Below the pieces are notes generated by a model, which saw nothing but the letters and a program-made list of their open reading frames with translations, was not told where the DNA came from and ran no database searches. Of a stretch of 35,887 nucleotides of DNA, positions 4,427-32,380 are shown piece by piece. Position 1 is the first letter of the stretch. Each line of letters starts with the position of its first letter. Both the position numbers and the translations under genes were made by a program. The DNA is from Bacteroides sp. (GTDB lineage Bacteria; Bacteroidota; Bacteroidia; Bacteroidales; Bacteroidaceae): assembly GCA_017471925.1 (NCBI GenBank), contig JAFURM010000020.1, positions 1-35,887 of the forward strand, read 5' to 3'.

Positions 4427-4431
4427 TATCT

Positions 4432-7982: not shown

Positions 7983-8033
7983 ATGAGTGGAATTAATAGT
8001 GTTGTTTCTTGGTCTGTTGTTTTTAGGGGAGGA

Positions 8034-10880
8034 TTACTGCTTGTCCGTTCCGTTGACACTCTTCTTGTAGGAGTTGTCTATCCGGAATCCAGAGGTGTAG
8101 TAGTTGTTGGTAGCCTCTATGGAGTGGGCGTTCTTGCCCAAGCGCATGTAGTGTTCTCCGGTTTTCAGCTTTTGGGCAAAGTAGGAACTGTAGATACGCG
8201 CCTTGCCGCCTCTTACGTCCACTCCTTGTCCGCCGGAGCGTGTGAAGTTGGCCTGTTGGAGCGACAGGATGCCGTTGTTCACGATGGCGCCATAGACCGG
8301 ACTTCCCCAGAAAGCACTGTTGTAGAGAATCAGCTGAGCCTTGGGATGAATCTTTTCCGTCTTTTCCTCGTCGCCCATGAGGACATAAGACCTGACCGGC
8401 TCGTCGGGAATCTGCGTGTTCACCAGTTCGGAGTTGATGGCCACGATTTTGGTATCCTTGTCGGCATCTTCTACGAACAGCGAGTAGGTGCAACCGTCAG
8501 ATCCGTGTCCGATGACTGTCATGCTGCCGGGATATTTGCCGGTGATGGCATCTTTCAGGAAGTGTATGCCGTAGACGGAGCCATAGACGAAGTTGTTGAA
8601 GATGGTCTGGTTCTTGACATCGGCAAACTTCAGTGCGCTGCAGTTGGACTGTACATAGCGCATCATGAAAGCCTCCGGGTAGCCTTGTCCGCCTTCGGGC
8701 AGGCGGGAACCGTAGTGAGGATTGAATTGCATGTTGCGGATGAAGCCTCCTTCGGCTCCGCCACCCACCCAGATGCCGGCTCTCAGAGGCATGCCGCCCA
8801 GATAGTCCACGTAATGACCACTGGTGTTGTAGGAGGCCAGGTCAATCCCCTTGTCCGCTATGGGGATAGTGACGTTGATGAGATAAACCTCGGGGCCTTG
8901 GCCTTGCACCAGGAAGGGGGCCTTTCGAGGATTTCTCACACTGTAGCCGTCAGAGATGATGTTGAGTTGCACCAGTGACAGACCGCGCAGGCCGGCCTTG
9001 CTCTCCAACTGGATGAGAGAGACACCGTTCTCGCCTTCCGCTCCGCCATCATAGTTGGTGAAGAGGGCTGTTCCGCCGCCTTGTGTGTGGTGTTGTACGT
9101 CCCATGAACCTCTCAATTCGACTCCTGAGGGAACCTTGATGGGACTTTCCACTAAGTATCTGCCGGCCGGGAGATAGAGTGTGCCGCCACCGGCTGCCTT
9201 CAGCCGGTTAAGTGCGGCTTGCAGGTCGGCGGCCACATCCTGGGTGGGGCGGTCGTTGTTGAAACCGCTGGCTTTGGGTAAATCCACCCGCAGTACGTTG
9301 TTGGATGCGGGTCTGGGATGTCGGGCAATGTCTGTCGGAATGTTCTGTGGAATGGGGGTGAAGGCATACTTCTTTCCATTGATGATTTCCACCTTGGCCG
9401 CACGGCTTTGGTTGTCGATGGCCAGACGGTTGTGCAGTCCGCTGTTCACTGATTTCAAGCTGTTCATTTCGTTGCCTAAGTAGAGGTGTCCGGTGGGCTT
9501 GTTGAAATGGCATTGTGAGAGCAGAACGTTGCCGCTGTTCACCTTCAGGGCATAGTCGGTATAGTCGATGAAGCGGCAGTTTTCAAAGGAAATGACCCCA
9601 TCCTTGCCATCGCTGACGACACTACCGGCGAAGTTAACTCCGTTGAACTGTACCGATGTGGCAAAATCTTTATGGAAGTAGGCAGAATGGCCATCCTTCC
9701 TGCCTCCGAAGAAGGAGTTGGAGATGAGAATACCGTAGGGGTTAACGTCTTCCACATACAGTCCGTCGCGGCAATTATCCACGTGTATGTCATACAACTG
9801 TGCGTTGGGAGCATCGGCATAGCCCGGTTCGCGCCCAATCCATACTCCCGTCTTGTAGCCGGATACGTTGAGGCCGGATACATACTCCCAGTCCGAACGA
9901 TGCATTTGGAAACCGGTGGCGGCATCCAGGGTGTGAGCAGTGAGTGCTTCAAGAGAGGGAGCACCGGGAAGTCCCGACTCGGCCCAGTAGCGGGGATTGA
10001 TTTTCACGTTCTCAATGCGGCCGATGTCGGTACACACGTGCACCTCAACGCCTTTGTTCAGGGGAGTCAGGTAGCTGTCCTTGACGTAGTGCAGCTCGCT
10101 CGGTGCCGAGTAGAAACCGTTGTAGGCGTTGACCAGAGTCACCCGGTCTATCGTGGCACAGTCTCCTTGAGCCTGAAACAGTGTCCAGGGGTAGGGCCTG
10201 ATGTCGTCTATCTTCTGTTCGGGATACCAGATGGAGAGGTTGGTTACTCCCGTTCCGGCATTCATTTCGATGAATCGGTCGGCAATGCTGGTGTAGGTGG
10301 TGCGCAGGGCATTGCCGGCCTGGCTGTCGTTCCACCAGCTCTCCACGCTGCCATCGTGGTTGGGAGCATCCTTCCCTACACGTACTTCAAGGATGGTACC
10401 GAGCACTTTTCCGCCATTTGTCTCCGGATTGGTCCAGTCTCCGCGAAGCTGTACGCCCGGATGCAACCGCAGGACATACTCGTAGTGGAATTCCTGTCGG
10501 CCTTCTGAGCGTCCCCGTCTCACTCTGACGGTCTTGTGTCCGATGTAGGTACTTCGGAATTCATAGTTCCCGGCCGGTATGTAGACCACACCGCCGCCGT
10601 TCTTGTAGGCAGCATCAATGGCCAACTGGAAAGCAGACCTGTTGTCAAATCCAGGTTCGGCCTTGGCACCGAAGTCGGTGACAACGTAGTCCGATACGAC
10701 CCAGTCATTGGTCGGGAATTGGGTAGTGATGCTGGGTTGGATGGTCGGCTCGGTCTGTGCCTGGCAGGCACTGATAGGGAGCAGCGTCAGTAAGCCGGCT
10801 GCAACCCATTGCCGGAATGTTGCAAGTCTCCTTGGAAAGAACGGCTTGCGGGATGAAGAGTCAGAATAATTCTTGTTCAT
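8034..10880 (-). CDS. Double beta-helix (pectate-lyase-3-like) lipoprotein
   Basis: This 948-residue protein is the first gene of the glycan operon. A long basic N-terminus precedes a hydrophobic stretch ending LLPISAC, a probable lipobox with Cys39. Two similar right-handed beta-helix units follow. Unit one opens with DFGAKAEPGFDNRSAF near 69 and GGGVVYIPAGNYEF near 95. Unit two opens with DVAADLQAALNRLKAAGG near 548 and GGTLYLPAGRYLVESP near 565. Each is a PF12708-type (pectate_lyase_3) start found in GH28-related proteins, lyases and epimerases. Each unit later carries an RGDW/RGSW segment and an INPRYW or FNPHYG segment, which supports an internal duplication. No catalytic residues of a known lyase family could be assigned. 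It may be a lyase, a hydrolase or a binding protein. Confidence 0.8.
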   Translation of the reverse strand: MNKNYSDSSSRKPFFPRRLATFRQWVAAGLLTLLPISACQAQTEPTIQPSITTQFPTNDWVVSDYVVTDFGAKAEPGFDNRSAFQLAIDAAYKNGGGVVYIPAGNYEFRSTYIGHKTVRVRRGRSEGRQEFHYEYVLRLHPGVQLRGDWTNPETNGGKVLGTILEVRVGKDAPNHDGSVESWWNDSQAGNALRTTYTSIADRFIEMNAGTGVTNLSIWYPEQKIDDIRPYPWTLFQAQGDCATIDRVTLVNAYNGFYSAPSELHYVKDSYLTPLNKGVEVHVCTDIGRIENVKINPRYWAESGLPGAPSLEALTAHTLDAATGFQMHRSDWEYVSGLNVSGYKTGVWIGREPGYADAPNAQLYDIHVDNCRDGLYVEDVNPYGILISNSFFGGRKDGHSAYFHKDFATSVQFNGVNFAGSVVSDGKDGVISFENCRFIDYTDYALKVNSGNVLLSQCHFNKPTGHLYLGNEMNSLKSVNSGLHNRLAIDNQSRAAKVEIINGKKYAFTPIPQNIPTDIARHPRPASNNVLRVDLPKASGFNNDRPTQDVAADLQAALNRLKAAGGGTLYLPAGRYLVESPIKVPSGVELRGSWDVQHHTQGGGTALFTNYDGGAEGENGVSLIQLESKAGLRGLSLVQLNIISDGYSVRNPRKAPFLVQGQGPEVYLINVTIPIADKGIDLASYNTSGHYVDYLGGMPLRAGIWVGGGAEGGFIRNMQFNPHYGSRLPEGGQGYPEAFMMRYVQSNCSALKFADVKNQTIFNNFVYGSVYGIHFLKDAITGKYPGSMTVIGHGSDGCTYSLFVEDADKDTKIVAINSELVNTQIPDEPVRSYVLMGDEEKTEKIHPKAQLILYNSAFWGSPVYGAIVNNGILSLQQANFTRSGGQGVDVRGGKARIYSSYFAQKLKTGEHYMRLGKNAHSIEATNNYYTSGFRIDNSYKKSVNGTDKQ

Positions 10881-18377: not shown

Positions 18378-19397
18378 CTATGCTATCTCCACGAGTATGC
18401 GGAACACTTTCCCGGGGTCGGCTGCCCATGCTTGCATGGCGGTAGATGCCTGTTCGGGGGAGACGATGCTGCTGATGAGTTGTTCTTTGGGACAAGTGCC
18501 CTGCTCCAGATAGTGGATAACGGCACGGAAGTCGGTCGGAAGAGCGTTGCGTGAGCCGTAGATGTTCAGCTCCTTCTGCACAAAATATTTCGTTTGGAAG
18601 GAAATCTCAGACTTGGCATACCCGATACATACCACACGGCCCGTAAAACCCACTTCGTTGACTGCCGTGATATAGGTCTCGGGACTGCCCACAGCTTCAA
18701 TGACTACATCGGGACCCAGTCCCTGTGTCACTTCCTGCAGGCGTTCGTGGAGCGACTGGGTGCGTGAGTTGATGCAATGGACAGCACCCAGTCGGGCGGC
18801 TAATGCCAGCTTTTCATCGTCAATGTCTACGGCTATGACGGTGGCACCACGCAGTGCTGCCCGCACAATGGCTCCGACACCTATCATACCGCAGCCGATG
18901 ACCATGACACAATCAATGTCGGTCACCTGTGCACGTGATACGGCATGAAATCCCACGCTCATAGGCTCTATCAGGGCACAGTCGCGTGGCGAAAGACTGT
19001 TGGCCGGTATCACTTTCTCCCAGGGTATGGCGAGATACTCGGTCATGGCACCGTTGCGTTGCACGCCTAAGGTCTCGTTGTGTTCACAGGCGTTCACACG
19101 GTTGTTGCGGCACGAGGCGCACTTGCCGCAGTTGGTATAGGGGTTCACCGTAACACTCATGCCGGGCTGCAGAGAGACCGGAACACCTTCTCCTGTGGCA
19201 GCAATGACGGCTCCTATTTCGTGGCCGGGGATGACCGGCAGTTTCACCATGGGATTACGTCCCAGGAAGGTGTTGAGGTCAGAACCGCAGAAACCCACAT
19301 AGTGGACCTTCAGTAATACTCCGCCCGGTTTCAGGACGGGCTTTTCTATTTCTACCGTTTCCATGTGGAGCGGTGAAGTGATTTGAATGGCTTTCAT
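18378..19397 (-). CDS. Zinc-dependent medium-chain dehydrogenase (sugar-acid/polyol type)
   Basis: This 339-residue MDR enzyme oxidises a secondary alcohol with NAD(P). Catalytic zinc ligands are in GFCGSD (Cys37), GHE (His59, Glu60) and ALIEPMSVG (Glu144). Structural zinc cysteines are 90, 93, 96 and 104 in CGKCASCRNNRVNAC. The Rossmann motif GCGMIGVG starts at 168. The C-terminal YGSRNALPTDF segment resembles L-galactonate 5-dehydrogenase (LgoD-like) proteins. That suits a sugar-acid substrate released by the adjacent lactonase, such as L-fuconate or L-galactonate. It is the last gene of the minus-strand module, 25 bases after the amidohydrolase. The enzyme class is firm; the substrate is inferred from context and partial resemblance. 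Confidence 0.85.
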   Translation of the reverse strand: MKAIQITSPLHMETVEIEKPVLKPGGVLLKVHYVGFCGSDLNTFLGRNPMVKLPVIPGHEIGAVIAATGEGVPVSLQPGMSVTVNPYTNCGKCASCRNNRVNACEHNETLGVQRNGAMTEYLAIPWEKVIPANSLSPRDCALIEPMSVGFHAVSRAQVTDIDCVMVIGCGMIGVGAIVRAALRGATVIAVDIDDEKLALAARLGAVHCINSRTQSLHERLQEVTQGLGPDVVIEAVGSPETYITAVNEVGFTGRVVCIGYAKSEISFQTKYFVQKELNIYGSRNALPTDFRAVIHYLEQGTCPKEQLISSIVSPEQASTAMQAWAADPGKVFRILVEIA

Positions 19398-19422
19398 CGT
19401 TTCTATTGTTTTATTAGGGGGA

Positions 19423-20349
19423 TTATTCAGACATGTTTTTGATATAGGGAAGTTCTATCAGGCGGTTGAACCCATAGAATTGGGCGGCGTTCCGTTCCAG
19501 GAAGAGTTTTTTCTCCTCGGAAGAGAGTTCGTCACTCTTCAATACGAAGTCATAGGACATGCGGTAGGTGATGGCTGTGATGGTGCGCGGATAGTCGGAA
19601 CCCCACATCAACTTCTCCATACCCACCAGGTCGGCCGCTTTACGGATGGCGCGAATGGCTCCATGGAAAGGATAGAACTCATCGTTGAAGAGCCACGTGA
19701 TGCCGCCGGATTCTATCCGCACATTCGGGTGAAGAGCCAGTTTGATCTGCTCTTGCCACTGCGGACGTGTTACCATGCCGAAATGGCCTATGGCTATCTT
19801 CAGGGAGGGACACTCTTGTATCACCTCCTCCATTTCACCCACTTGCAGGGCACCATCGGCCAAATCGATGGAGAGGATGATACCGCGCTGCTCCATTTCG
19901 TGGAATAACTGCATCATCTCGTTGCCGGTGAGACTCACCCGTCCTTCCTTCAGCAGCAGGCGTTGGGCAGGTATCTTGATGGCTCTGAATCCTTCGTCCA
20001 TCAGACTGCAGGCATGGGGCAGGAAGCCTGGACGGCGGAACTCGCACATGCCGCACACCAAAAAGCGGTCGGGATAACGCCGGGCCACCTCTGCCAGATA
20101 GTCGTTCTGTATACCGTCGATAAACTCTTGGGTAATGACGGCTGCCGAGACTTGGGCATAGTCCATATTGGACAGAAACACTTCGGCACTATTCTTTCCG
20201 TTGGTCATGAAGGGGGGAAGCATTTGCCGTACCTCGCCCATGAAAAGCGAGCGGCCGTTCTCCATTGTGCGAATGGGCAGATTGTCCACTACGGTGTCTT
20301 GCCTCAGCCACAGGTGGGCATGGGCATCAATGATTCTAAGGTCGTTCAT
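19423..20349 (-). CDS. Amidohydrolase-family sugar lactonase (L-fuconolactonase-like)
   Basis: This 308-residue TIM-barrel protein belongs to the amidohydrolase-2 family, which includes L-fuconolactonase and related aldonolactonases (COG3618 type). The metal motif IDAHAHLW gives His10 and His12. IAIGHFGM supplies His189, and LMWGSDYPR supplies the conserved Asp252. No signal peptide is visible, so it acts in the cytoplasm. I chose the ATG at 20349, giving MNDLRIIDAHAHLW, because the family starts just before the HxH motif. The longer frame overlaps upstream sequence without conservation. It sits 10 bases after the aldo/keto reductase stop. A sugar dehydrogenase producing a lactone next to a lactonase is the standard arrangement of oxidative sugar pathways. 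Confidence 0.83.
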   Translation of the reverse strand: MNDLRIIDAHAHLWLRQDTVVDNLPIRTMENGRSLFMGEVRQMLPPFMTNGKNSAEVFLSNMDYAQVSAAVITQEFIDGIQNDYLAEVARRYPDRFLVCGMCEFRRPGFLPHACSLMDEGFRAIKIPAQRLLLKEGRVSLTGNEMMQLFHEMEQRGIILSIDLADGALQVGEMEEVIQECPSLKIAIGHFGMVTRPQWQEQIKLALHPNVRIESGGITWLFNDEFYPFHGAIRAIRKAADLVGMEKLMWGSDYPRTITAITYRMSYDFVLKSDELSSEEKKLFLERNAAQFYGFNRLIELPYIKNMSE

Positions 20350-20359
20350 GTGGATGACA

Positions 20360-21292
20360 TTAAGAGTTTTTCCAACTGACACGCATCTGGCTGCCGATGA
20401 TGCTCTGTACCTCTTTTACCAGAGTCTCGTCCATGGGCTCCTGTAGGTAACTCAGGTTCTTCAGCACATTGTCGGGATTGGCCGAACTGAACAGGGTGGT
20501 GGCGATACGCGGATTGCTGACGGCGTATTGGATGGCCAATCGTTCAATGGGGTAGTCCTTGGCGAGACAGTGGGCCGCTGCCTTTTGGCAGGCTTCAATC
20601 AGTGGACGGGGTGCCGGATGCCAGGCGGGGACACCACGCTGCGAGAGTAGTCCCATGGAGAGGGGAGAGGCGTTGATGATACCTATCCCGCGTTGTTCAA
20701 AGTAGTCCAGGTAGTCCGCCAGCTTGTCATCGTTCAGGCAGTAGTGGCAGAAGTTCAGTACACTCTCCACCGTGCCGGCAGGTGTGTGGTCAATGACCCA
20801 TTGCAGGTTTTCCAGTTGCAGGTCAGTGATTCCCACGTGGCCCACCACGCCTTTTTCCCGCAACTCTACTAAGGCCGGCAGGGTCTCTTCGGCCACTTGA
20901 TGCAGATCGGCAAATTCAATGTCGTGTACGTTGATGAGGTCAATGTAGTCTACGTTCAGGCGTTCCATGCTTTCATAGACGCTCTCTGTGGCCCGGCGAC
21001 CCGAATAGTCCCACGTGTTGATTCCATCCTTGCCGTAGCGTCCCACCTTGGTGGAGAGGTAGTAGCGGTCGCGCGGAATCTCCTTCAATGCCTTCCCCAA
21101 TACTGTCTCGGCCTTGTAGTGGCCGTAGTAGGGAGAGACGTCAATAAAGTTCATGCCATGCTCCACGGCCGTGTGGACAGCTCGCACAGCTTCTGCCTCG
21201 CGTACATCATGGAACACTCCTCCTAACGAGGAGGCTCCGAAACTGAGTTCAGATACCCTCATCCCAGTTTTTCCAATTTCGTTATATCTCAT
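20360..21292 (-). CDS. Aldo/keto reductase, L-fucose/L-galactose dehydrogenase-like
   Basis: This AKR of about 310 residues belongs to the L-galactose/L-fucose 1-dehydrogenase group, which oxidises the sugar at C1 to a lactone with NAD(P). The catalytic tetrad is visible: Asp51 and Tyr56 in NFIDVSPYYGHYKAETVLG, Lys82 in LSTKVGRYG and His123 in LINVHDIEF. The HDIEF segment is characteristic of the plant and bacterial L-galactose dehydrogenase subgroup. I chose the ATG at 21292 (MRYNEIGKTGMRVSEL), which has AAGGA close upstream; an ATG 30 nt further upstream cannot be excluded. The gene lies between the AraC regulator and the lactonase on the minus strand. The context (GH29, mutarotase, lactonase) favours L-fucose or L-galactose as substrate. 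Confidence 0.85.
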   Translation of the reverse strand: MRYNEIGKTGMRVSELSFGASSLGGVFHDVREAEAVRAVHTAVEHGMNFIDVSPYYGHYKAETVLGKALKEIPRDRYYLSTKVGRYGKDGINTWDYSGRRATESVYESMERLNVDYIDLINVHDIEFADLHQVAEETLPALVELREKGVVGHVGITDLQLENLQWVIDHTPAGTVESVLNFCHYCLNDDKLADYLDYFEQRGIGIINASPLSMGLLSQRGVPAWHPAPRPLIEACQKAAAHCLAKDYPIERLAIQYAVSNPRIATTLFSSANPDNVLKNLSYLQEPMDETLVKEVQSIIGSQMRVSWKNS

Positions 21293-21325
21293 ATTCCTTA
21301 ATTTATAATTCATCATTTGCAATGC

Positions 21326-22183
21326 TCACTCATCATTCATTCTGTATTGTTGTGGCGTCATTCCCGTTGTCTTGCGGAATAGGCGGTTGAAGTAGGAGTG
21401 GTCTTCGAAAGCCAGAGCCAAGGCAATGCTCTTGATGGAGAGCTTGGAGGTGAGCAACAGGAGTTGTGCTTTCTCCACCTTCTTCTGATTGATGTAGTGC
21501 AGAGGTGTACTGCCGGTTGTCCGCTTGAAGAGGCGGATGAAGTGGTCCTTGGATAGACAGGCCGTGTTGGCCAACTGTTCAATGCTGATGCTTGTGTGCA
21601 GGTTCTTGCGGATGTAGGCCAGCACTTTCTGCATGCGGTCGTCGCTGACTTCCGACTTGGGTTGCGCATGTTTCAGGAAACGGGCGATGAGTTGGTAGAC
21701 GATGCCGCGCGATTCCACCTTGTCACAGAAGGCTCGTTGTTTGTTCTTCACGATGTTGTGGAGCAGTGTGGAGTTATTGTCATAGGTGCTGGGGTCCGAT
21801 TGAGTCAGTCGGAACGTGGGATTCATCTCGCAGAGACGTTGGAACAGGGCGAGGTCCAGCGGTGTGGCCGGTAGTTCGGTGGGAAAGTGCCAGTCCTCCA
21901 GAATGCCCGTGTCCGACTGATGGTCCTCGTAGATGTGCAGGTAGTAGTGCTCAAAAGGACCGTTGCAGTGGTAGCTGTGGGACGTGAAAGCCGGAATCAG
22001 GTAGAGGTGTCCCGGCCTCAAGGTCTGTTCCTTGTCGGGCAGGTTGATTTGTGCGCTTCCCCTCGTTACATAATAGAGCCGTGTGAAGGGACTGCTTACG
22101 TCCTGCCAATTCCAGTCACCGTCGTGGACGGCCGGTCCCACGTTCAGTATAAGCAGGTGCAGTTGGTCAATGGATGAAATCAT
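21326..22183 (-). CDS. AraC-family transcriptional regulator
   Basis: This 285-residue regulator has an N-terminal cupin-like ligand domain (TRLYYVTRGSAQINLP, then LRPGHLYLIPAFTSHSY). The C-terminal AraC double helix-turn-helix spans about residues 185-283. Helix one is SIEQLANTACLSKDHFIRLF and helix two is SIKSIALALAFEDHSYFNRL, ending in the signature FRKTTGMTPQQYR. I chose the ATG at 22183 because AGGAG lies about seven bases upstream on the minus strand; the longer open frame reads through the promoter region. It heads the minus-strand dehydrogenase/lactonase operon and is divergent from the fucosidase gene. It is therefore the likely sugar-responsive activator of both arms. Confidence 0.92.
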   Translation of the reverse strand: MISSIDQLHLLILNVGPAVHDGDWNWQDVSSPFTRLYYVTRGSAQINLPDKEQTLRPGHLYLIPAFTSHSYHCNGPFEHYYLHIYEDHQSDTGILEDWHFPTELPATPLDLALFQRLCEMNPTFRLTQSDPSTYDNNSTLLHNIVKNKQRAFCDKVESRGIVYQLIARFLKHAQPKSEVSDDRMQKVLAYIRKNLHTSISIEQLANTACLSKDHFIRLFKRTTGSTPLHYINQKKVEKAQLLLLTSKLSIKSIALALAFEDHSYFNRLFRKTTGMTPQQYRMNDE

Positions 22184-22247
22184 GGTGCATCTCCTGATAT
22201 TGGTTAATTGGCTGCAAGTTAGGAGAAAAAAAAGTAAGCACCAACCG

Positions 22248-22322
22248 AATGTCGATAATTTGCACAGCTTTGCCACAAGAAACCCTCAATAATCCCATGC
22301 CGGGAATGGAAATGTCGATAAT
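22248..22322. promoter_or_regulatory. 12-bp direct repeat pair, candidate AraC operators
   Basis: The sequence aatgtcgataat occurs exactly at 22248-22259 and 22311-22322. The repeat distance is 63 bp, close to six helical turns. The left copy abuts a TTG -33 candidate of the regulator promoter. The right copy lies about 50 bp upstream of the fucosidase -7 box. Such spacing and position fit AraC-type activation, possibly with looping. Confidence 0.55.
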
Positions 22323-22371
22323 GTCCAATACAAACCTCCCATTGTCTGATGCTTGTTATCGTTTATCTCTC

Positions 22372-22379
22372 TATCTTTG
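22372..22379 (+). promoter_or_regulatory. Candidate -7 element of the fucosidase promoter
   Basis: TATCTTTG matches TAnnTTTG exactly, 43 nt upstream of the GH29 start codon. The nearest upstream TTG copies are at unusual distances (16 and 27 nt), which is consistent with an activator-dependent promoter. Confidence 0.6.
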
Positions 22380-22422
22380 CACCATACAGAAAATAAAACA
22401 AACTACTTAAACAATCTGACCA

Positions 22423-24063
22423 ATGAAAGCAAGAAGATTATCTCTCCTCCTCTCCTTTTGTATGGCGGGGATGTTGTCAGCCCAGGAATACCAGGTTCCG
22501 GTATCGGAGGTGCATGAAAAAGTGGCGGGAGGTGTGTTTGCTCCCACCTGGGAATCGCTGAAGACCTATGAAGTGCCCGAGTGGTTCCGTAATGCCAAGT
22601 TCGGCATTTGGGCCCATTGGGGACCGCAATGCGTGGAGGGCTCTGGTGACTGGATGGCCCGTTCCTTATATATAGAAGGTACGCGCGAGTACAAGCATCA
22701 CGTGGAGCACTATGGCCACCCCTCTGAAGTAGGCTTCAAGGACATTCTACCCTTGTTCAAGGCCGGGAAGTGGAATCCCGATTCGTTGGTGGCTTTCTAC
22801 AAGCAGATTGGGGCGCAGTATTTCTTTGCCTTGGGCAATCATCACGACAACTTCGACCTGTGGGACAGCCGCTACCAACGTTGGAACTCTGTGAACATCG
22901 GCCCCAAGAAGGATATTTTGGCCGGATGGGCAGAGGCGGCCAGGAAGCAAGGACTTCCCTTCGGCATCAGTTTCCATGCCGACCATGCCTGGAGTTGGTA
23001 TGAACCGTCGCAGCGTTACGACCGTGAGGGACCCAAGATGGGCGTGCCTTATGACGGCACCCTCACCAAGGCCGATGGTGTGGGCAAGTGGTGGGAAGGA
23101 TATGACCCTCAGGAACTCTATGCACAGAATCATCCCCTCAGTCAAGGCAGCTGGGCCAACGGCATGATACACAGACAGTGGGCCTGGGGCAACGGTGTAG
23201 CACTGCCCACACAGGAATATTGTACCAACTTCTATGACCGCACACTGGATGCCATCAACCGTTATAATCCCGACCTGATTTACTTCGATGTGACCGGTGT
23301 GCCTTTCTATCCCATCAGTGATGCCGGCCTGAAGATTGCCGCCCACTTCTATAACCACAACATGGCGATTCACAAGGGTGACTTGCGGGCGGTGATGTTT
23401 GGCAAGATTCTGACCGAAGAACAACGCGATGCCTTGGTTTGGGACGTAGAGAAGGGAGCACCCAACCGCATTATGGAGGAACCGTGGCAGTCCTGTTCAT
23501 GCATCGGTGGCTGGCACTACAACACGGGCATCTATGAACGCAACCGCTATAAGTCGGCTGCCGATGTGGTGAAACTCCTGGTAGACATTGTCAGCAAGAA
23601 CGGCAATCTGTTGCTCAGCGTACCCTTGCGGGCCGATGGCACTTTCGATGAAAAGGAAGAGGCTATTCTGAAAGCTTTCGGTGCCTGGATGACGGTCAAC
23701 AAGGAGAGTATCATCGACACCCGCCCCTGGAAAGTATTCGGTGAAGGCCCCATTGCCGAGGCCGATATCCAAATCAATGCCCAGGGCTTCAACGAAGGTG
23801 CCTATACCAAGGCCACTGCTCAGGAAATACGCTTCACGCAGCGTGGCAAGTTCCTCTATGCTACGGCGCTCTCCTGGCCGGAGGGAAAGCAGGTACTCAT
23901 CAAGTCTCTGAGTCAGGATAATCCCCTTCATCCGGGTAAAATCCGTCGGGTGGAACTGCTGGGCTACGGCAAGGTAAGTTTCAGCCGCACGGCCGATGGA
24001 CTGCTCATCAACCTGCCCGACAAACAAGTGAACGACATTGCACCCGTATTTAAAATCAGATAA
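22423..24063 (+). CDS. GH29 alpha-L-fucosidase, secreted
   Basis: This 546-residue enzyme belongs to GH29, retaining alpha-L-fucosidases that remove terminal L-fucose; some members accept L-galactose. A signal peptide spans residues 1-20 (SFCMAGMLSAQ). The catalytic barrel carries WFRNAKFGIWAHWGPQ near 54, the substrate-binding ALGNHHDNFDLWDS near 136 and YNPDLIYFDVTG near 281. That last segment places the probable nucleophile at Asp289. SKNGNLLLSVPLRADGTF follows, and then a C-terminal beta-sandwich. GH29 domain length is normal. The product would enter the divergent oxidative pathway after conversion by the mutarotase gene three bases downstream. The fucosidase family is firm; the glycosidic linkage and the fucose versus galactose preference are open. 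Confidence 0.93.
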   Translation: MKARRLSLLLSFCMAGMLSAQEYQVPVSEVHEKVAGGVFAPTWESLKTYEVPEWFRNAKFGIWAHWGPQCVEGSGDWMARSLYIEGTREYKHHVEHYGHPSEVGFKDILPLFKAGKWNPDSLVAFYKQIGAQYFFALGNHHDNFDLWDSRYQRWNSVNIGPKKDILAGWAEAARKQGLPFGISFHADHAWSWYEPSQRYDREGPKMGVPYDGTLTKADGVGKWWEGYDPQELYAQNHPLSQGSWANGMIHRQWAWGNGVALPTQEYCTNFYDRTLDAINRYNPDLIYFDVTGVPFYPISDAGLKIAAHFYNHNMAIHKGDLRAVMFGKILTEEQRDALVWDVEKGAPNRIMEEPWQSCSCIGGWHYNTGIYERNRYKSAADVVKLLVDIVSKNGNLLLSVPLRADGTFDEKEEAILKAFGAWMTVNKESIIDTRPWKVFGEGPIAEADIQINAQGFNEGAYTKATAQEIRFTQRGKFLYATALSWPEGKQVLIKSLSQDNPLHPGKIRRVELLGYGKVSFSRTADGLLINLPDKQVNDIAPVFKIR

Positions 24064-24066
24064 ACC

Positions 24067-24444
24067 ATGAAAGGTTATAACGTCAAGAACTACCCCGGTC
24101 CGGTGAAGCGCTACTGCCGTACCCTGGACCTGAAGAACGATGAGGCATTGATTGCCGAGTATATCAAACGCCACAGCCAAAGCGAGGCCTGGCCCGAAAT
24201 CCTGGAAGGCATACGCTCTGTAGGTATCCTGGAGATGGAAATCTACATCACGGGTAACCGCCTTTTCATGATTGTGGAGACTCCGCAGAACTTCGATTGG
24301 GACAGTGCCATGGCCCGCCTGGGCACCTTGCCGCGCCAGCAGGAGTGGGAAGACTATATGGCCATCTTCCAGGACTGCCGGCCGGGCGATACAGCCACCG
24401 ACAAGTGGAAGATGATGGAGCGCATGTTCCATCTCTATGAATAG
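24067..24444 (+). CDS. DUF718/RhaM-family sugar mutarotase
   Basis: This 125-residue protein belongs to the L-rhamnose mutarotase fold family (DUF718, COG3254), which interconverts alpha and beta anomers of 6-deoxy-L-sugars. The N-terminal strand and helix read [20 protein letters not shown]. The conserved [19 protein letters not shown] segment follows near residue 37, then the strand [18 protein letters not shown] and a C-terminal [15 protein letters not shown] block. No signal peptide is present, so it works in the cytoplasm. It starts three bases after the fucosidase stop, clearly in one transcript. Members of this family associated with fucose genes are treated as type-2 L-fucose mutarotases, which fits here. 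The anomer produced would be supplied to the dehydrogenase. Confidence 0.85.
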
Positions 24445-25066: not shown

Positions 25067-25074
25067 TATCTTTG
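25067..25074 (+). promoter_or_regulatory. Candidate -7 element upstream of the split nucleotidase operon
   Basis: TATCTTTG matches TAnnTTTG exactly. It lies about 33 nt upstream of the chosen ATG at 25108 and argues against a start near 25072. The -33 element is not obvious. Confidence 0.5.
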
Positions 25075-25107
25075 TCCCCCGAATGGAAACAAACAGAAAC
25101 AAATCGC

Positions 25108-25878
25108 ATGAATAGACTGGATTGGAAGATGGCAATGGCTTTGCTGTTGGGGGGATGTCTGCTGTGCTCCTCTTGCCGTACGGCCTCCTGTGAAGTGTTC
25201 TCCGTCGAGGGAACTGCCGTAAAGATGGACACCCTTTGGCAGGCTGCGCCGGATAACGAAATGGCCCGTCTGCTGGCCCCTTACCGGCAGAAGATGGACA
25301 GCTTGCGCCACAGGGTGGTGGGGCGTGCCGCCGTATCAATGGATCGGGAACGTCCCGAAGACCTGTTGCAGAACCTGGTAGCCGACGTTTTGCGGGAAGC
25401 GGCAGTGATGGTGCAGCCACAACCGGCCGACATGGGCTTGATGAATATCGGTGGCTTGCGCAACGTGCTGACGCAGGGCGATGTGACCTATGAGACCATC
25501 TTCGAGATACTTCCCTTTGAAAATTCTCTTTGCGTGCTGACGCTGACAGGACGCAACCTGCTCCTGCTTTTTGAGAACATTGCTGCCCGTGGCGGTGAAG
25601 GAGTGAGCGGTGTGACGCTCCGCATCTCTACCGACGGTCGTCTGTTGGAAGCCAGAGTCGGCGGACAACCCGTGGAGCCGGACCGTCTCTACACCGTGGC
25701 TACCATTGATTACCTGGCCGAAGGAAACGACGGCATGCCTGCCCTGTTGCAGGCCGAGAAGCGGGAGTGCCCGCCCGATGCCACGCTGCGCGACCTCTTC
25801 CTGCGCTATGTGGAACGCCAGACGGCTCAGGGAAAGGAACTGACTTCCAAACGGGAAGGACGCATCGTCAGGCGGTGA
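25108..25878 (+). CDS. 5'-nucleotidase C-terminal domain lipoprotein
   Basis: This 256-residue protein consists of the C-terminal (substrate-binding) domain of UshA-type 5'-nucleotidases. A lipoprotein-like leader reads LLLGGCLLCSSC; either Cys could be acylated. Domain motifs are RPEDLLQNLVADVLREAA near 80, then DMGLMNIGGLRNVLTQGDVT near 110, and the IFEILPFENSLCVLTLTG strand and helix near 138. TVATIDYLAEGNDGMPALL follows near 218. The metallophosphoesterase half is encoded by the next gene, 42 bases downstream of the stop at the preferred start. The domain order along the DNA is thus the reverse of that in fused enzymes. The two proteins probably form one periplasmic nucleotidase. Confidence 0.85.
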   Translation: MNRLDWKMAMALLLGGCLLCSSCRTASCEVFSVEGTAVKMDTLWQAAPDNEMARLLAPYRQKMDSLRHRVVGRAAVSMDRERPEDLLQNLVADVLREAAVMVQPQPADMGLMNIGGLRNVLTQGDVTYETIFEILPFENSLCVLTLTGRNLLLLFENIAARGGEGVSGVTLRISTDGRLLEARVGGQPVEPDRLYTVATIDYLAEGNDGMPALLQAEKRECPPDATLRDLFLRYVERQTAQGKELTSKREGRIVRR

Positions 25879-25920
25879 CCCTCTTCCCCTTTTATGAACT
25901 CAAATCCGTTTTTTGAAATC

Positions 25921-26781
25921 ATGAGATACATCCTATCTTTACTTCTCTGCTTCCTCGCTTTGGAAAGCATGGCTCAGGAAACCGTACAACGTCTGCTCAT
26001 CTTGCAGACCAGTGACACACACAGTCGTCTGGAGAGTGTGCCGGCAACTTCGGCCGACGCCCGTTGTGCCGGATTGGGCGGTGTGGAACGCCGCAGTGCC
26101 TTCGTGAACCGGATGCGCAACGAGACCCCAGACCTCTTGCTGCTGGATTGCGGCGACTTTTCCCAAGGCTCGCTCTACTATAACATCTTCCGAGGTGAGG
26201 TGGAGATACAGGCTATGAACCTGATGGGTTATGATGCCGTCACCATCGGTAACCATGAATTCGATTATGGCCTGGACAACATGGCCCGCCTGTTCCGCAT
26301 GGCCCGTTTCCCGATAGTGTGTGCCAACTATGACTTTACGGGTACCGTACTGGAAGGACTGGTGAAACGCTATACCGTGGTACAACGTCATGGCCTGAAG
26401 ATTGGCATCTTTGGACTGGGAACCCGTCTGGAAGGATTGGTACAGGCTCACAACTATGTGGGAGTGGGCTATAGGGAGCCTGTTGCAGTAGCCCGTGAGG
26501 TGGTGGACATCCTGCGCGACAGGGAGGGTTGTGATGTAGTCATCTGTCTTTCCCATCTGGGCATTGTGCAGGGAGCCGATGATAGCTCCGGTTATGACAA
26601 TGAACTGGCCATGAACACCCGGGGCATCGACTTGATATTGGGCGGTCATACCCATACCTTCATGGAGACTCCCGAAGTCTACCTGAATGCTGATGGCCGG
26701 GAGGTGAAAGTGTTCCACACGGGTAAGCAGGGAGCCTATGTGGGACGTGTGGAACTGATGGTTCGGACAATCAAAGAGTAA
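25921..26781 (+). CDS. 5'-nucleotidase metallophosphoesterase domain protein
   Basis: This protein of about 286 residues is the catalytic metallophosphatase half of a UshA-type 5'-nucleotidase. A signal peptide (MRYILSLLLCFLALESMAQ) precedes the dinuclear-metal motifs. These are LQTSDTHSRLES, LLLDCGDFSQGS, the GNHEFDYG block, ICLSHLG, and LILGGHTHTFMETP; together they supply all expected Asp, His and Asn ligands. I preferred the ATG at 25921 because its leader has a positively charged start. An in-frame ATG at 25894 would add nine residues. It would hydrolyse nucleotides or other phosphomonoesters in the periplasm together with the upstream C-terminal-domain lipoprotein. Full-length enzymes of the family carry both domains in one chain. 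Confidence 0.9.
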   Translation: MRYILSLLLCFLALESMAQETVQRLLILQTSDTHSRLESVPATSADARCAGLGGVERRSAFVNRMRNETPDLLLLDCGDFSQGSLYYNIFRGEVEIQAMNLMGYDAVTIGNHEFDYGLDNMARLFRMARFPIVCANYDFTGTVLEGLVKRYTVVQRHGLKIGIFGLGTRLEGLVQAHNYVGVGYREPVAVAREVVDILRDREGCDVVICLSHLGIVQGADDSSGYDNELAMNTRGIDLILGGHTHTFMETPEVYLNADGREVKVFHTGKQGAYVGRVELMVRTIKE

Positions 26782-26816: not shown

Positions 26817-29324
26817 ATGAAAAGAATCTGTGTTTGCATGATGGGTCTGTTGATGGGGATGGTCCTCCTGGCCCAACCCAAGAATGTAACAACAACGACA
26901 AATCCGGCCTGCAAGGAATGGGTGGATACCCGCCTGGCCGGTCTGACCCAAGACGATAAAATAGCCCAATTGGTAGTGGTCACCGTGCCGGCCAAGGTCG
27001 ATGGTGCCACCAAGAAAGCCGTGCGCGACTGGGCCAAGAAGTACAGGATAGGTGCCATGATGTTCAGCGGAGGTACCGTTGAGGAACAGACCATCCTGCT
27101 GAACCTGGCCCAGAAGAATGCCCCCCTGCCCGTGCTGGCCATTACGGGAGGCCGACGGCTTTCGGCCCTTCTGTCGGATGTGCCCTGCTTTCCTGAAAAG
27201 ATGCCTCTTTCCTGTGTGTCCGATGAGGCTTTGCTGGGTGAAATGGAGACCGAAATGGCCCGCGAGTGTCGCGAACTTGGACTGTATGACTGTGCTTGGG
27301 AAACCTATGGTGATGCCACGGCCCGCCTGACCGCCCTGCGCGACTCGGTGGCAGCAGGCACCCTGACTGTCGCCGAACTGGACCGTCGATGCCGGCTTGT
27401 CCTCACGGCCAAGTATCAGGCCGGCCTGCATCGCCCCTGGCAACCGTTGCAGGTGAGCGGCATGAGCCATCGTGTCAACTCCGATGAGGCCAAGGCACTG
27501 GCCGGGAAGTTGCATCAGGCCACGGTGGTGGTACCCAACAACTACTTCGGTCTTCTCCCCTTGACGAAGGAAGGGCAGGAGGTGGCTGTGCTCAGCATCG
27601 GTGCGGAGTCGGCGGACTCCATCTTCTGCGAAGCGTTGAAGGAACATACTGCTTTTACCCACTTCCACCTGGCCACTGATGCCGATGAGAACCTCTGTGA
27701 GGTGATGGGGCGTAACCTGGCTTCCTATACCCGCATCATCGTGAGCCTCACGGGCGAGGGCTACTCCTTGGTGGGTGCTCCCGTGTTGAACTTTCTGGCC
27801 AAGCAGGAACTGAAAGCCCCGCTGGTCTATGTCTGCTTCACACCCTACCTCTCCCTTTTCTCCATGGAACAGGCTTTGGCACGCTCGGCCGCTACCGTCG
27901 TGGCCCACTCGGCTGACGCAGCCATACAGCGTCATGTAGCCGCTCTGCTGTGGGGCCGGAGTGCCGCTTCGGGTCGTTTGCCAATGGCCATGGGACGTAC
28001 CTTTGCCCAAGGCGACGGACTTGACCTGATGCCCGGCCGGCCTGCCGCCACCTTGATTCCCGATGATTGGGGACTGAAGTCCTACGTCTTGCAGCGCATT
28101 GATGCCGAGGTACAGCGCGGACTTCAGGCCGGGGCCTATCCCGGCTGCCGTGTACTGGTACTGAAGGAGGGACAACCCGTCTACGACAGAGGTTTCGGCG
28201 TACATTCTCCCCTGGACTCCACGGCCGTGCGTTCCACCGACCTCTTCGACATGGCTTCGCTCACCAAACCCATGGCTACACTGCTGGCCGTCATGAAACT
28301 CTATGACGAGGGCCGTCTGAAGCTGGAAGACAAACTGTCGGCCCATCTCCCCTTGCTGCGCAACACCGACAAGAGAGACATTACCATCCGCGAACTCCTG
28401 TTCCACGAGTCGGGCCTTCCGCCTCACATCCGCTTCTACATGGAGGCCATAGACCCCAATTCCGTAAAGGGACCCTACTCCCAGAGTTGGGAGGACGAGT
28501 GGCACAAGACGCGCGTCAGCGAGCACGGCTACTATTCCTCGGCCTTCCGGTTTAAGAAGGGACTGGTGGCTGCTACACAGAGCACTACGCACACCCTGCC
28601 CGTGGCCGAAGGCATGTGGATGAACAAAAGCTTCAAGCAGACCGCCCTGCAACAGATTGCCAAGTGTGACCTGGGAGGCAAACGCTACGTCTACAGCGAC
28701 CTGGGCTTCATCCTGCTGCAACAGGTGGTGGAGAGCGTGAGCAAGACACCGCTGGATGTCTACGTGACCCGCGAGTTCTACGAGCCTATGGGCCTGAAGC
28801 GTACGCTCTTCCTGCCGCTCACCAAATATCCCAAGAGTGAAATCATGCCCACAGCCTTCAATGACTTCCTGCGTAGGCAGGACCTCTGCGGCTACGTGCA
28901 CGATGAGGCCGCAGCCTGCCTGGGCGGTGTGGCCGGACATGCCGGACTCTTCTCCACCGTGGAGGAGACGGCCAAGATATTCGGCATGCTGATGAACGGT
29001 GGCGAATGGGACGGACGCCGCTACCTCTCGGAGGGCACCTGCAGCCTCTTCACCACGCAGACTTCGGCCATCAGCCGGCGTGGACTGGGCTTTGACAAGC
29101 CTGACGGCATTCCCCTGAACAGCCCCTGCTCACTCTCTACGCCAGCCGAGGTCTATGGCCACACCGGTTTCTCCGGTACGGCGGCCTGGGTGGACCCCAA
29201 GAACCATTTGATTTACATCTTCCTGAGCAACCACATCTGCCCGAACGTGTGGGATACCAAGCTGGGTGACATGGACATCCGGCGCAACATTCAGGAAATC
29301 ATCTATCAAAGTCTGAAGAAATGA
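26817..29324 (+). CDS. GH3-like (catalytically deleted) plus serine hydrolase fusion protein
   Basis: This 835-residue secreted protein starts with a signal peptide (LLMGMVLLAQ). Residues 35-205 resemble the NagZ GH3 domain, but about 160 residues present in the next gene are missing after ECRELGL (near 156). The lost part includes the KHFPGHG loop, its DSH motif and the nucleophile FTDA segment. The GH3 C-terminal sandwich is retained (about 210-420). A class C beta-lactamase-type serine hydrolase domain follows, with SLTK (Ser481, Lys484), YSD (Tyr626) and HTGFSGTAAW. It should be inactive as a glycosidase but may be an active serine hydrolase. The last four bases overlap the next gene. Both are probably exported cell-wall enzymes; the substrate is unknown. 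Confidence 0.85.
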   Translation: MKRICVCMMGLLMGMVLLAQPKNVTTTTNPACKEWVDTRLAGLTQDDKIAQLVVVTVPAKVDGATKKAVRDWAKKYRIGAMMFSGGTVEEQTILLNLAQKNAPLPVLAITGGRRLSALLSDVPCFPEKMPLSCVSDEALLGEMETEMARECRELGLYDCAWETYGDATARLTALRDSVAAGTLTVAELDRRCRLVLTAKYQAGLHRPWQPLQVSGMSHRVNSDEAKALAGKLHQATVVVPNNYFGLLPLTKEGQEVAVLSIGAESADSIFCEALKEHTAFTHFHLATDADENLCEVMGRNLASYTRIIVSLTGEGYSLVGAPVLNFLAKQELKAPLVYVCFTPYLSLFSMEQALARSAATVVAHSADAAIQRHVAALLWGRSAASGRLPMAMGRTFAQGDGLDLMPGRPAATLIPDDWGLKSYVLQRIDAEVQRGLQAGAYPGCRVLVLKEGQPVYDRGFGVHSPLDSTAVRSTDLFDMASLTKPMATLLAVMKLYDEGRLKLEDKLSAHLPLLRNTDKRDITIRELLFHESGLPPHIRFYMEAIDPNSVKGPYSQSWEDEWHKTRVSEHGYYSSAFRFKKGLVAATQSTTHTLPVAEGMWMNKSFKQTALQQIAKCDLGGKRYVYSDLGFILLQQVVESVSKTPLDVYVTREFYEPMGLKRTLFLPLTKYPKSEIMPTAFNDFLRRQDLCGYVHDEAAACLGGVAGHAGLFSTVEETAKIFGMLMNGGEWDGRRYLSEGTCSLFTTQTSAISRRGLGFDKPDGIPLNSPCSLSTPAEVYGHTGFSGTAAWVDPKNHLIYIFLSNHICPNVWDTKLGDMDIRRNIQEIIYQSLKK

Positions 29325-32300
29325 AACGCCTGATATGCTCCCTGTTGATAGGGCTGATGGCTGCCTGTGCCCATTCGGTGGGCGAGGAGAGACCGGTGCA
29401 GTCCGGAGAAGGCACCGGGCCTGACGTGGTGGCGGACCAATCCGGTCCCGCCCTGTTACGCCCTTTGCTTAACGACTCTTGTTGCCTCCAGTGGGTGGAC
29501 TCGGTGATGCTGACGCTGGATGCCGATGCCCGCTTGGGCCAGCTCTTCATCTACACCATCGCTCCCCAGCGCGACAAGGCCAACGTAGCCCTGCTGCGCA
29601 AGGTGGTGGAGGAGTACAAGATTGGCGGCCTGCTCTTCTCGGGCGGACAGATGGCGGACCAGGTAGCCCTGATGAACGAGGCGCAGGAACGGGCCGATGT
29701 CCCTCTGATGATGACCTTCGACGGAGAGTGGGGACTCTCCATGCGCTTGAAGAATACTCCGCTCTTCCCCCGCAACATGGTGCTGGGCTGCATCCGCAAC
29801 GACAGTCTGCTCTATGCCTATGGGCGTGAGGTGGCCCGCCAGTGCCGCGAGTTGGGAGTACAGGTGAACTTTGCTCCCGTGGCCGATGTCAACATCAATC
29901 CCAAGAACCCCGTCATCAACACCCGCTCCTTCGGTGAGTCCCCAGCCAGGGTGGCCCGTCAGGTGACGGCCTATGCCCGTGGTCTGGAAGATGGTGGTGT
30001 GCTCTCGGTGAGCAAACACTTTCCCGGACATGGCGATACGGAGGTGGACTCCCACGAAGCACTCCCCACGCTCCCCTTCAGCCGCGAGCGACTGGACAGC
30101 GTGGAGCTGCTCCCCTTCCGCCAGGTTATACGTGCCGGACTGGGTGGCGTCATGGTGGGCCACTTGGAGGTTCCGGCCCTGGAACCGCGCAAGGGAGTGC
30201 CCGCTTCACTGTCGTGCCGCGTGGTGGACGGCCTGCTGCATGGCGAACTGGGCTTTGAAGGACTGACCTTCACCGATGCCTTGGCCATGAAGGGAGTGGG
30301 CAGCGGACAGACTCTCTGTCTGCAAGCATTGCAGGCCGGCAATGACCTGCTGCTAGTGCCGCGTCGCATCAAGGAGGAGGTGGAGCACATCCGGCAGGCA
30401 CTGAAGAGCGGTGAACTGTCGCAGGAGGAGATAGACCGCCGTTGTCGCAAGGTGTTGATGTTCAAGTATGCCTTGGGGTTGCACCGGAAACCCCATACGC
30501 TCCTCTCCGGACTGGACCGGCGCATTGACACGCCCGATACCCGCCTTCTGATTCGCAGGCTGAACCTGGAGGCCGTGACCCTGCTCCGCAACCAGTCGGA
30601 CATCTTGCCGCTGGACACCACCATTCGGGAAGTGGCCCTGCTTCATGTGGGCGAACGCCAGTCGGTGCAACCTTTCATCAACACGCTCTCCAAGTATGCC
30701 CTGGTGAAGGACTTTCGCCTCATGGCCGGACAGACCCCGGCCCAGCGGGAACTCCTGCGCGAGAAGTTGTCCAAGTATCGCCGCGTGGTGGTCTGTGTGG
30801 CCGAGCGCAAGCTGGCTCCCTATCAGGATTTCTTCGACGAACTCTCCCTCGACGTGCCGCTGGCCTATGTGCTGCTGGTGCAGGGCGGTGATGCCGCCCG
30901 CATCGAAGGGGCTCTCTCTAAGGCCGAGGCGGTCCTGCTGGCCCATTCGACCGATGAAGAGGTGCAGCGTCATGCCGCCCGCCTGCTCTATGGTGAGGCC
31001 TCGGCCGACGGTCGTTTGTCGGCAGCTATCGGTCAGGCTTTCCCGGCCGGTGAGGGAGTGGACTACGGACCACATCCACGGACACACTATCGTCCCGAGG
31101 AGCATGGCATGGACAGTCGCCTACTGGCCTGCATTGACACCATTGCCGAAGAGGGCATTCGTGAAGGGGCCTATCCGGGCTGTCAGATTGTGGTCTGGAA
31201 GCAGGGAAAGGAACTATATAATAAGGTGTTCGGCACGCACACGGGCAAGTCGCCCCAAGAGGGCAGCGTGCGCTTTGTACGTCCCACGGATGTCTACGAC
31301 GTGGCTTCGCTCACCAAGACTTCGGCCACCCTGCTGGCTGTCATGAAACTCTATGACAAGGGACTGCTGAGCCTCACCGACCGTGCCTCTGACTATCTGC
31401 CTTGGCTGGTCGGGACCGATAAGCAGGAGATTACCATCCGTCAGCTTCTGCTGCACGAGTCGGGTCTTCCCTCCACCATTCTTTTCTATCAGAATGCCAT
31501 CGATGAGGAGAGCTTTACTGCTCCTCTCTTTAAGGCCCGCCGCGATGCCCTGCACCCTGTGCGCATCGGCAGCAAGACGTGGGCCAATCCCAGGTTCCGC
31601 TTCCGTGAAGGACTCACCTCGGCGGTGAAGAGCGATCGTCACACCCTGCAGGCGTGTGACAGCCTTTGGCTGGATGCCGCCTTCAAGGAGGAATATCGGA
31701 AGTTGATTGTCGAGACACCCCTGTGCGACAGGCGTAGCCGTTATAGTTGCGTGGGCTTCATCGTGCTCCAGCAGGTGGTGGAGGCCCGCACGGGAATGTC
31801 GCTCGATGCCTACCTGGAGCAGGAATTCTATGGACCGATGGGGCTGCAACGCACGGGCTACCTTCCGCTTCGTCGCCTGGACAAGGCCGGAATCGTACCT
31901 TCCAACAGCGACCCCTTCCTGCGCAAGGCTACCTTGCAGGGCTATGTCCACGACGAGTCGGCGGCCTTTCAGGGCGGGGTGTCGGGCAATGCCGGACTCT
32001 TCTCCACGGCTGCTGAACTGGCCTGCATCTATCAGATGCTGCTGAATGGCGGTGAGTGGCAGGGACGTCGCTACCTGAGCCGGGAGACTTGCCGCCTCTT
32101 CACCACCACTGCTTCCCGAAGCTCGGGACGCGGACTGGGCTTCGACCGTCCCACGCGCCCTGCCGGAAAGACGAGTCCTTGCTCCGAGTCCACACCGGCC
32201 GCTGTCTATGGTCACACCGGCTTCACCGGTGCCTGCGCCTGGGTGGACCCTGAAAACGAACTGGTCTACGTCTTCCTCAGCAACCGCATCTATCCCGATG

Positions 32301-32380
32301 CCTGGAATTCCCAACTGATGAAACTTGACATCCGCCCCCGCATTCAGGAGGCCATATATGCCGCAATGCGCCGGAAGTGA
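29321..32380 (+). CDS. NagZ-like GH3 beta-N-acetylglucosaminidase plus serine hydrolase fusion lipoprotein
   Basis: This 1019-residue lipoprotein has the leader LLIGLMAAC, with the lipobox Cys at 16. The GH3 domain (about 55-390) is complete: SKHFPGHGDT at 231-240, DSH at 243-245 (the NagZ acid/base dyad) and nucleophile Asp319 in LTFTDALAMKG. The GH3 C-terminal sandwich spans about 405-600. A beta-lactamase-type serine hydrolase domain follows, with SLTK (Ser663, Lys666) and HTGFTGACAW. The usual third residue of the Tyr motif is replaced: the segment reads YSC (808-810), against YSD in the upstream paralogue. The combined domains suggest attack on peptidoglycan fragments, cleaving both the sugar and an amide or ester bond, but the hydrolase substrate is unproven. 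Confidence 0.9.
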   Translation: MKRLICSLLIGLMAACAHSVGEERPVQSGEGTGPDVVADQSGPALLRPLLNDSCCLQWVDSVMLTLDADARLGQLFIYTIAPQRDKANVALLRKVVEEYKIGGLLFSGGQMADQVALMNEAQERADVPLMMTFDGEWGLSMRLKNTPLFPRNMVLGCIRNDSLLYAYGREVARQCRELGVQVNFAPVADVNINPKNPVINTRSFGESPARVARQVTAYARGLEDGGVLSVSKHFPGHGDTEVDSHEALPTLPFSRERLDSVELLPFRQVIRAGLGGVMVGHLEVPALEPRKGVPASLSCRVVDGLLHGELGFEGLTFTDALAMKGVGSGQTLCLQALQAGNDLLLVPRRIKEEVEHIRQALKSGELSQEEIDRRCRKVLMFKYALGLHRKPHTLLSGLDRRIDTPDTRLLIRRLNLEAVTLLRNQSDILPLDTTIREVALLHVGERQSVQPFINTLSKYALVKDFRLMAGQTPAQRELLREKLSKYRRVVVCVAERKLAPYQDFFDELSLDVPLAYVLLVQGGDAARIEGALSKAEAVLLAHSTDEEVQRHAARLLYGEASADGRLSAAIGQAFPAGEGVDYGPHPRTHYRPEEHGMDSRLLACIDTIAEEGIREGAYPGCQIVVWKQGKELYNKVFGTHTGKSPQEGSVRFVRPTDVYDVASLTKTSATLLAVMKLYDKGLLSLTDRASDYLPWLVGTDKQEITIRQLLLHESGLPSTILFYQNAIDEESFTAPLFKARRDALHPVRIGSKTWANPRFRFREGLTSAVKSDRHTLQACDSLWLDAAFKEEYRKLIVETPLCDRRSRYSCVGFIVLQQVVEARTGMSLDAYLEQEFYGPMGLQRTGYLPLRRLDKAGIVPSNSDPFLRKATLQGYVHDESAAFQGGVSGNAGLFSTAAELACIYQMLLNGGEWQGRRYLSRETCRLFTTTASRSSGRGLGFDRPTRPAGKTSPCSESTPAAVYGHTGFTGACAWVDPENELVYVFLSNRIYPDAWNSQLMKLDIRPRIQEAIYAAMRRK

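Follow-up and report, generated by a model that had tools for sequence, protein, structure and literature searches.

An L-galactose pathway of Phocaeicola (Bacteroides) vulgatus was reportedly described by Hobbs in 2014 (Biochemistry 53:4661), and BVU_0220 is presumably its lactonase, an enzyme type also present in the window described below. According to passages of PMC12632266, which cite Hobbs 2014, BVU_0219 of P. vulgatus is reported to be an L-galactose dehydrogenase and BVU_0222 an L-galactonate dehydrogenase, and D-tagaturonate is named as an intermediate of the pathway. The locus considered here is a six-gene module in a stretch of 35,887 nucleotides from Bacteroides sp. (contig JAFURM010000020.1 of assembly GCA_017471925.1; the whole stretch is hereafter called the window), which encodes a glycoside hydrolase of family GH29, a mutarotase, an aldo-keto reductase (AKR), a lactonase of the amidohydrolase type, a zinc dehydrogenase and an AraC-family regulator (Table 1). 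With high confidence it is read as an AraC-controlled L-galactose salvage module, in which the five enzymes would hand over to UxaB, UxaA, KdgK-like and Eda-like enzymes whose genes lie elsewhere in the genome; it very probably frees L-galactose, a rare sugar of plants and algae, and feeds it by oxidation into a common route for sugar acids. The core pathway is already published, and the locus is this known pathway in a further genome; new are a probable AraC operator and the link between GH29 and mutarotase, both of which are predictions. No published description of a GH29-mutarotase-AraC module was found in a literature search outside which most subscription journals lay, and which is hence no proof that there is none.

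As described in the same passages of PMC12632266, the P. vulgatus pathway has in common with the window an AKR as L-galactose dehydrogenase, an L-galactonate dehydrogenase and an exit through D-tagaturonate. An AKR of that family, adjacent amidohydrolase and zinc dehydrogenase genes and, in the same genome, UxaB and UxaA were all found for the window. The LgoD/UxaB/UxaA route of E. coli, from L-galactonate through D-tagaturonate to altronate, is likewise similar, but lgoD of E. coli K-12 lies with genes for a galactonate symporter and a regulator, and the 12 kb stretch examined carries no annotated AKR or lactonase. The oxidative L-fucose pathway of the Xanthomonas type employs a dehydrogenase, a lactonase-type hydrolase and a mutarotase, followed by fuconate dehydratase and later steps, and the logic of its first three components is shared by the window. 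This pathway is mentioned in parts of PMC5507952 and PMC6946681. Fuconate dehydratase was not found by Pfam among 20 open reading frames (ORFs) of the window, which included the module genes and those flanking them left and right (the other ORFs of the window, the rest of the genome and the relatives were not searched).

ORF analysis of the window and Pfam searches confirmed the six genes and their directions as first proposed: all are open and intact at the positions and on the strands given in Table 1, and the curated cut-offs were exceeded for Aldo_ket_red, Amidohydro_2, ADH_N, ADH_zinc_N, Alpha_L_fucos, rhaM and HTH_AraC. On the minus strand the AraC, AKR, lactonase and zinc dehydrogenase genes follow one another in tandem, approximately 3-9 (depending on the start codon), 10 and 25 bases apart; the GH29 and mutarotase genes are separated by 3 bases on the plus strand, and both gene sets share one intergenic region.

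The AKR was 72% identical over 313 residues to the L-galactose dehydrogenase of PDB entry 7lh6, and its five best PDB matches were all named L-galactose dehydrogenase; close homology thus predicts it to be an L-galactose dehydrogenase. The sequence of 7lh6 is that of the AKR encoded at a P. plebeius DSM 17135 locus (L113; 100% over 310 residues). That the module has a broader range, serving also L-glucose (as in Luteolibacter) or D-arabinose, is very unlikely: passages of PMC12632266 state that Luteolibacter LguA and LguD accept both L-glucose and L-galactose, but BVU_0219 and BVU_0222 are described there as very inefficient on L-glucose and L-gluconate.

The lactonase matched Amidohydro_2 with 128.7 bits, the sole match to this family in its own genome, and its motifs DAHxHLW and WGSDYPR were invariant across 24 aligned members. 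In a structure search its best match was 4i6k, a probable 2-pyrone-4,6-dicarboxylate hydrolase (18% identity), with a COG3618 amidohydrolase at rank 4; the matches listed (n=50) were general amidohydrolases of 11-19% identity, so that the structure search names no substrate. With the curated L-fucono-1,5-lactonase model NF052480 the protein scored 23.8 bits, far below the cut-off of 400. Like the nearest AKR matches, this score tells against an oxidative L-fucose module, the headline of the original prediction, in which L-fucose would pass through fuconolactone to L-fuconate and C5 oxidation would give a 6-deoxy-5-ketoaldonate. Such a module would agree with the repute of GH29, known above all for its fucosidases, and with the action of COG3618-type lactonases of other bacteria on fuconolactone; moreover, L-fucose and L-galactose differ solely at C6. 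The zinc dehydrogenase shared 31% identity with E. coli LgoD across 309 residues and, with 183.5 bits for the nearest NCBIfam model, PRK10083 (cut-off 376), lies below the level of an LgoD equivalog.

Conservation of the gene order and linked UxaB/UxaA genes, both of which the original prediction had proposed to look for in other genomes, were found among relatives. Counts refer to 80 named loci, the best 80 of 577 confirmed, and neighbouring genes were sought by tblastn (E up to 1e-8) no farther than 10 kb from that of the lactonase. AKR and zinc dehydrogenase were both present in 77/80 loci (the latter in 78/80), the exceptions being L040 without the AKR, L074, a short contig, without the dehydrogenase, and L096 without both; four of the AKR matches in the 77 are partial, with 64-138 residues (L064, L079, L082 and L103). 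Given this linkage, the arrangement of the core genes is not due to chance. Five loci (L081, L089, L097, L108 and L118) have the order AKR-dehydrogenase-lactonase. UxaB and UxaA occurred together in 17/80 loci, or 11/51 of those flanked left and right by 9 kb or more, which again disfavours L-fucose as the substrate, the known chemistry fitting a 6-hydroxy acid; FucI, FucK or FucU was detected in none of the 80. A FucP-like permease gene was present in 44/80 loci, the mutarotase in 16/80, a close GH29 (at least 60%) in 10/80 and an AraC relative sharing 40% identity or more in 18/80. Most of the relatives examined differ from the window in having the permease gene between the lactonase and dehydrogenase genes, whereas in the window, whose module lacks it, the core genes follow the AraC gene and the GH29-mutarotase pair is divergent. 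The P. plebeius locus L113 (mutarotase, AKR, lactonase, FucP-like permease, dehydrogenase, UxaB, UxaA) shares the mutarotase, AKR, lactonase and dehydrogenase genes with the window and adds the permease, UxaB, UxaA and a GH2 gene; no GH29 match was found in its 20.9 kb stretch. P. plebeius DSM 17135 has two L-galactose modules, L058 and L113, one with a close GH29 and the other with UxaB and UxaA. At L082 (9031-11973) of Phocaeicola sartorii, AKR and dehydrogenase each match in two pieces. A relative of the lactonase was present in 183/399 genomes drawn from the family of the window, and in 93/207 of those at least 90% complete, suggesting that the use of L-galactose is widespread in the family and not peculiar to one species.

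The genome of the window encodes UxaB (44% identity) on contig C43, adjoining UxaC, and UxaA (57%) on contig C51, adjoining KdgK-like (26%) and Eda-like (31%) genes; D-tagaturonate thus has an outlet, and from these homologies this genome is predicted to allow the whole route, in which L-galactose is converted through L-galactonate and D-tagaturonate into pyruvate and triose phosphate. No ortholog of the module permease was found in the genome (best matches 35% and 34%). The module had been called self-contained and free of transporter, dehydratase and aldolase; the latter is true of the six genes, but the late steps and any transporter are encoded elsewhere, so that self-containment does not hold. 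A FucI (63%) and a FucP gene lie on contig C8, apart from the module, and FucK and FucA gave weak matches in the genome, so that the isomerase route for L-fucose is not shown to be complete. On the grounds of the lactonase model score, the nearest AKR matches, the separate FucI and the relatives' loci, in which no FucI, FucK or FucU was detected, the L-fucose reading, which we consider extremely improbable, was rejected; the substrate is most likely L-galactose. The proposed order of reactions, from sugar to lactone to aldonate with subsequent oxidation by an LgoD-like dehydrogenase, is supported by homology and gene order. Its L-galactose variant leading to tagaturonate, originally rated equally good, is in all likelihood right given the AKR homology, UxaB/UxaA and the P. 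vulgatus route, and the supposedly unusual C5-oxidation branch of L-fucose is not supported, the route being that reported L-galactose pathway (passages of PMC12632266). This reading also puts right what is probably a misannotation, in which galactose was taken for fucose.

In the proposed mechanism, an exported GH29 would cleave alpha-L-galactose off the chain ends of a glycan from plants or algae, and the mutarotase would interconvert the anomers of the freed sugar. By close homology, the AKR would oxidise L-galactose at C1 to the lactone; homology and gene order suggest that the amidohydrolase hydrolyses this lactone, giving L-galactonate, which the zinc dehydrogenase would oxidise at C5 to D-tagaturonate. 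The UxaB, UxaA, KdgK-like and Eda-like homologs would then yield pyruvate and glyceraldehyde 3-phosphate. AraC would bind repeats in the divergent promoter and drive both gene sets.

Among proteins of solved structure, the one nearest in sequence to the GH29 of the window was BpGH29, an exo-alpha-L-galactosidase (36% identity over 443 residues). The GH29 fold and the position of the catalytic aspartate were recovered by Pfam, sequence match, alignment and structure comparison; D289 aligns with BpGH29 D264, the residue mutated in 7lnp, and is by inference the nucleophile. BpGH29 (Bacple_01702, porphyran locus) is thus alike in fold, in the D264/D289 position and as the nearest solved sequence, but its gene differs in setting, adjoining sulfatase and porphyranase genes according to passages of PMC12316285, where the enzyme is described in porphyran use. 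Excerpts of PMC10154630 list BpGH29 and BT2192 among GH29 enzymes with alpha-galactosidase activities.

For the linkage of GH29 to the lactonase, the first 95 relatives by E-value among the matches listed (at least 58% identity) were taken. Seventeen were in genomes without a lactonase match, and for 26 the place of the lactonase was outside the matches listed. In the other 52 genomes both genes were placed: no more than 10 kb separated them in 26 (among these the window), they lay farther apart on the same contig in seven, and they were on different contigs in 19; by chance, approximately 1% or less would be expected to lie within 10 kb, as estimated from genome sizes. Specificity for L-galactosides is predicted, as the order of sequence matches and the lactonase linkage favour L-galactosides over L-fucosides. 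We regard it as possible, if doubtful, that the L-galactose pathway is real and the GH29 is an ordinary alpha-L-fucosidase, acting for instance on xyloglucan, whose place in the locus is due to history or to a polymer that carries both sugars. Structure comparison leaves room for this: Foldseek with the GH29 model ranked BpGH29 first (E 6e-44 to 2e-41) and fungal fucosidases at 3e-38, and the VIA-align Z score tied BpGH29 with fungal GH29 fucosidases. In addition, the GH29 network in parts of PMC11189522 has BpGH29 in cluster 2, and xyloglucan is a source of fucose for the fucosidases of this cluster and of cluster 3. The leading place of BpGH29 in the sequence matches and the repeated lactonase linkage speak against an ordinary fucosidase, as does the proximity of a mutarotase gene, which was at most 600 bases from GH29 in 19/95 of the closest relatives and at least 10 further, less similar ones among the matches listed. 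Six of these 19 pairs are in genomes of the genus of the window and away from the lactonase; that such pairs recur, also apart from the lactonase, supports a mutarotase acting on the GH29 product. The findings point to a large GH29 group whose members, at present called fucosidases, may release L-galactose instead. According to passages of PMC4491172, a GH95 frees L-galactose from corn xylan, so that land plants are a source of this sugar. At L080 (935-7834) a SusC/SusD-like pair lies between GH29 and mutarotase, and GH29 can therefore belong to a glycan uptake locus.

The mutarotase fell short of the L-rhamnose mutarotase equivalog TIGR02625 (YiiL; 26.3 bits, cut-off 99.6) and belongs to the wider family PF05336; its residues Y32 and H36 were invariant (14/14 aligned).

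The gap between the AraC and GH29 genes contains two copies of a 17-base repeat starting AATGTCGATAAT, 88% alike and 63 bases apart. A motif search over 16 gaps in which AraC faces GH29, mutarotase or AKR, with one site per gap forced, settled on 16-base sites, all on one strand and 73-154 bases ahead of the next gene. The motif held 14.7 bits of information vs 6.2-7.0 in four shuffled sets (single bases shuffled; real set best of 10 starts, each shuffled set of 6; loci related); a 20-base run chose different sites in several loci. A weight matrix from the 15 other loci placed the site of the window first in the window (17.5 bits; next 13.8), the matrix excluding that site but its 15 sites coming from a run that included the window. 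Repeat copy 2 is probably the AraC operator; the evidence is good, though kinship among the loci and the choice of sites in a run that contained the window keep it from being independent. A candidate operator sequence is now on hand for testing. A genome-wide pattern search returned the two window sites and three sites with two mismatches; the reversed control gave two matches, and no wider regulon is shown. Scanning of the UxaB, UxaA and FucI regions gave at best 13.9 bits vs 17.5 for the window site. The Bacteroides -7 element has the consensus TAnnTTTG, to which one further sequence of the gap corresponds (Table 1). It is an evenly balanced proposal that the GH29 clade of the window consists of dedicated exo-alpha-L-galactosidases from gut Bacteroidales of land animals, each with an L-galactose mutarotase as partner and controlled together with L-galactose oxidation by one AraC through a TGTCGATATTGTCCTA-like operator, the whole being an alpha-L-galactoside regulon for terrestrial plant glycans and not for seaweed. 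At L061 (7852-8877) and L085 (7869-8882) a divergent regulator other than AraC precedes the AKR; that of L085 is of the LacI type by Pfam and that of L061 is similar in its N-terminal sequence, so the type of regulator may vary between lineages.

Table 1. Genes of the predicted L-galactose module and sequence elements of the AraC-GH29 gap, in window coordinates.
Feature	Position	Strand	Basis and remarks
Zinc-dependent medium-chain dehydrogenase, predicted L-galactonate 5-dehydrogenase (product D-tagaturonate)	18378..19397	-	Pfam ADH_N and ADH_zinc_N, LgoD homology, linkage
Amidohydrolase-fold lactonase, predicted L-galactono-lactonase	19423..20349	-	Pfam Amidohydro_2; ATG start, GTG at 20382 possible
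AKR, predicted L-galactose dehydrogenase	20360..21322	-	TTG start listed, ATG at 21316; Pfam Aldo_ket_red
AraC-family regulator	21326..22276	-	Pfam HTH_AraC and AraC_binding; true start may be ATG, codon 32 (22183)
Direct repeat copy 1, possible AraC site	22248..22264	+	AATGTCGATAATTTGCA; within the longest AraC frame if the GTG start is used
Repeat copy 2, probable AraC operator	22311..22328	+	Best motif match in the whole window, both strands
TATCTTTG, fits Bacteroides -7 element	22372..22379	+	Read from the sequence
GH29 glycosidase, predicted exo-alpha-L-galactosidase	22423..24063	+	Pfam Alpha_L_fucos; signal-peptide-like start by eye
RhaM-family (PF05336) mutarotase, predicted substrate L-galactose	24067..24444	+	Pfam rhaM, 102.8 bits

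Elsewhere in the window, GH3, GH92, weak GH99-like (under cut-off) and pectate-lyase-like genes stand in a row on the minus strand (2063-10880), left of efflux genes; from its domains this row is a glycan-degrading set. On the plus strand, a 5'-nucleotidase is apparently split with its order reversed (25072-26781), the gene for the C-terminal domain preceding that for the metallophosphatase domain. It is followed by two tandem genes (26817-32380, plus strand) in which GH3 parts are joined to a beta-lactamase-like domain, the GH3 part of the first being weak and under cut-off.
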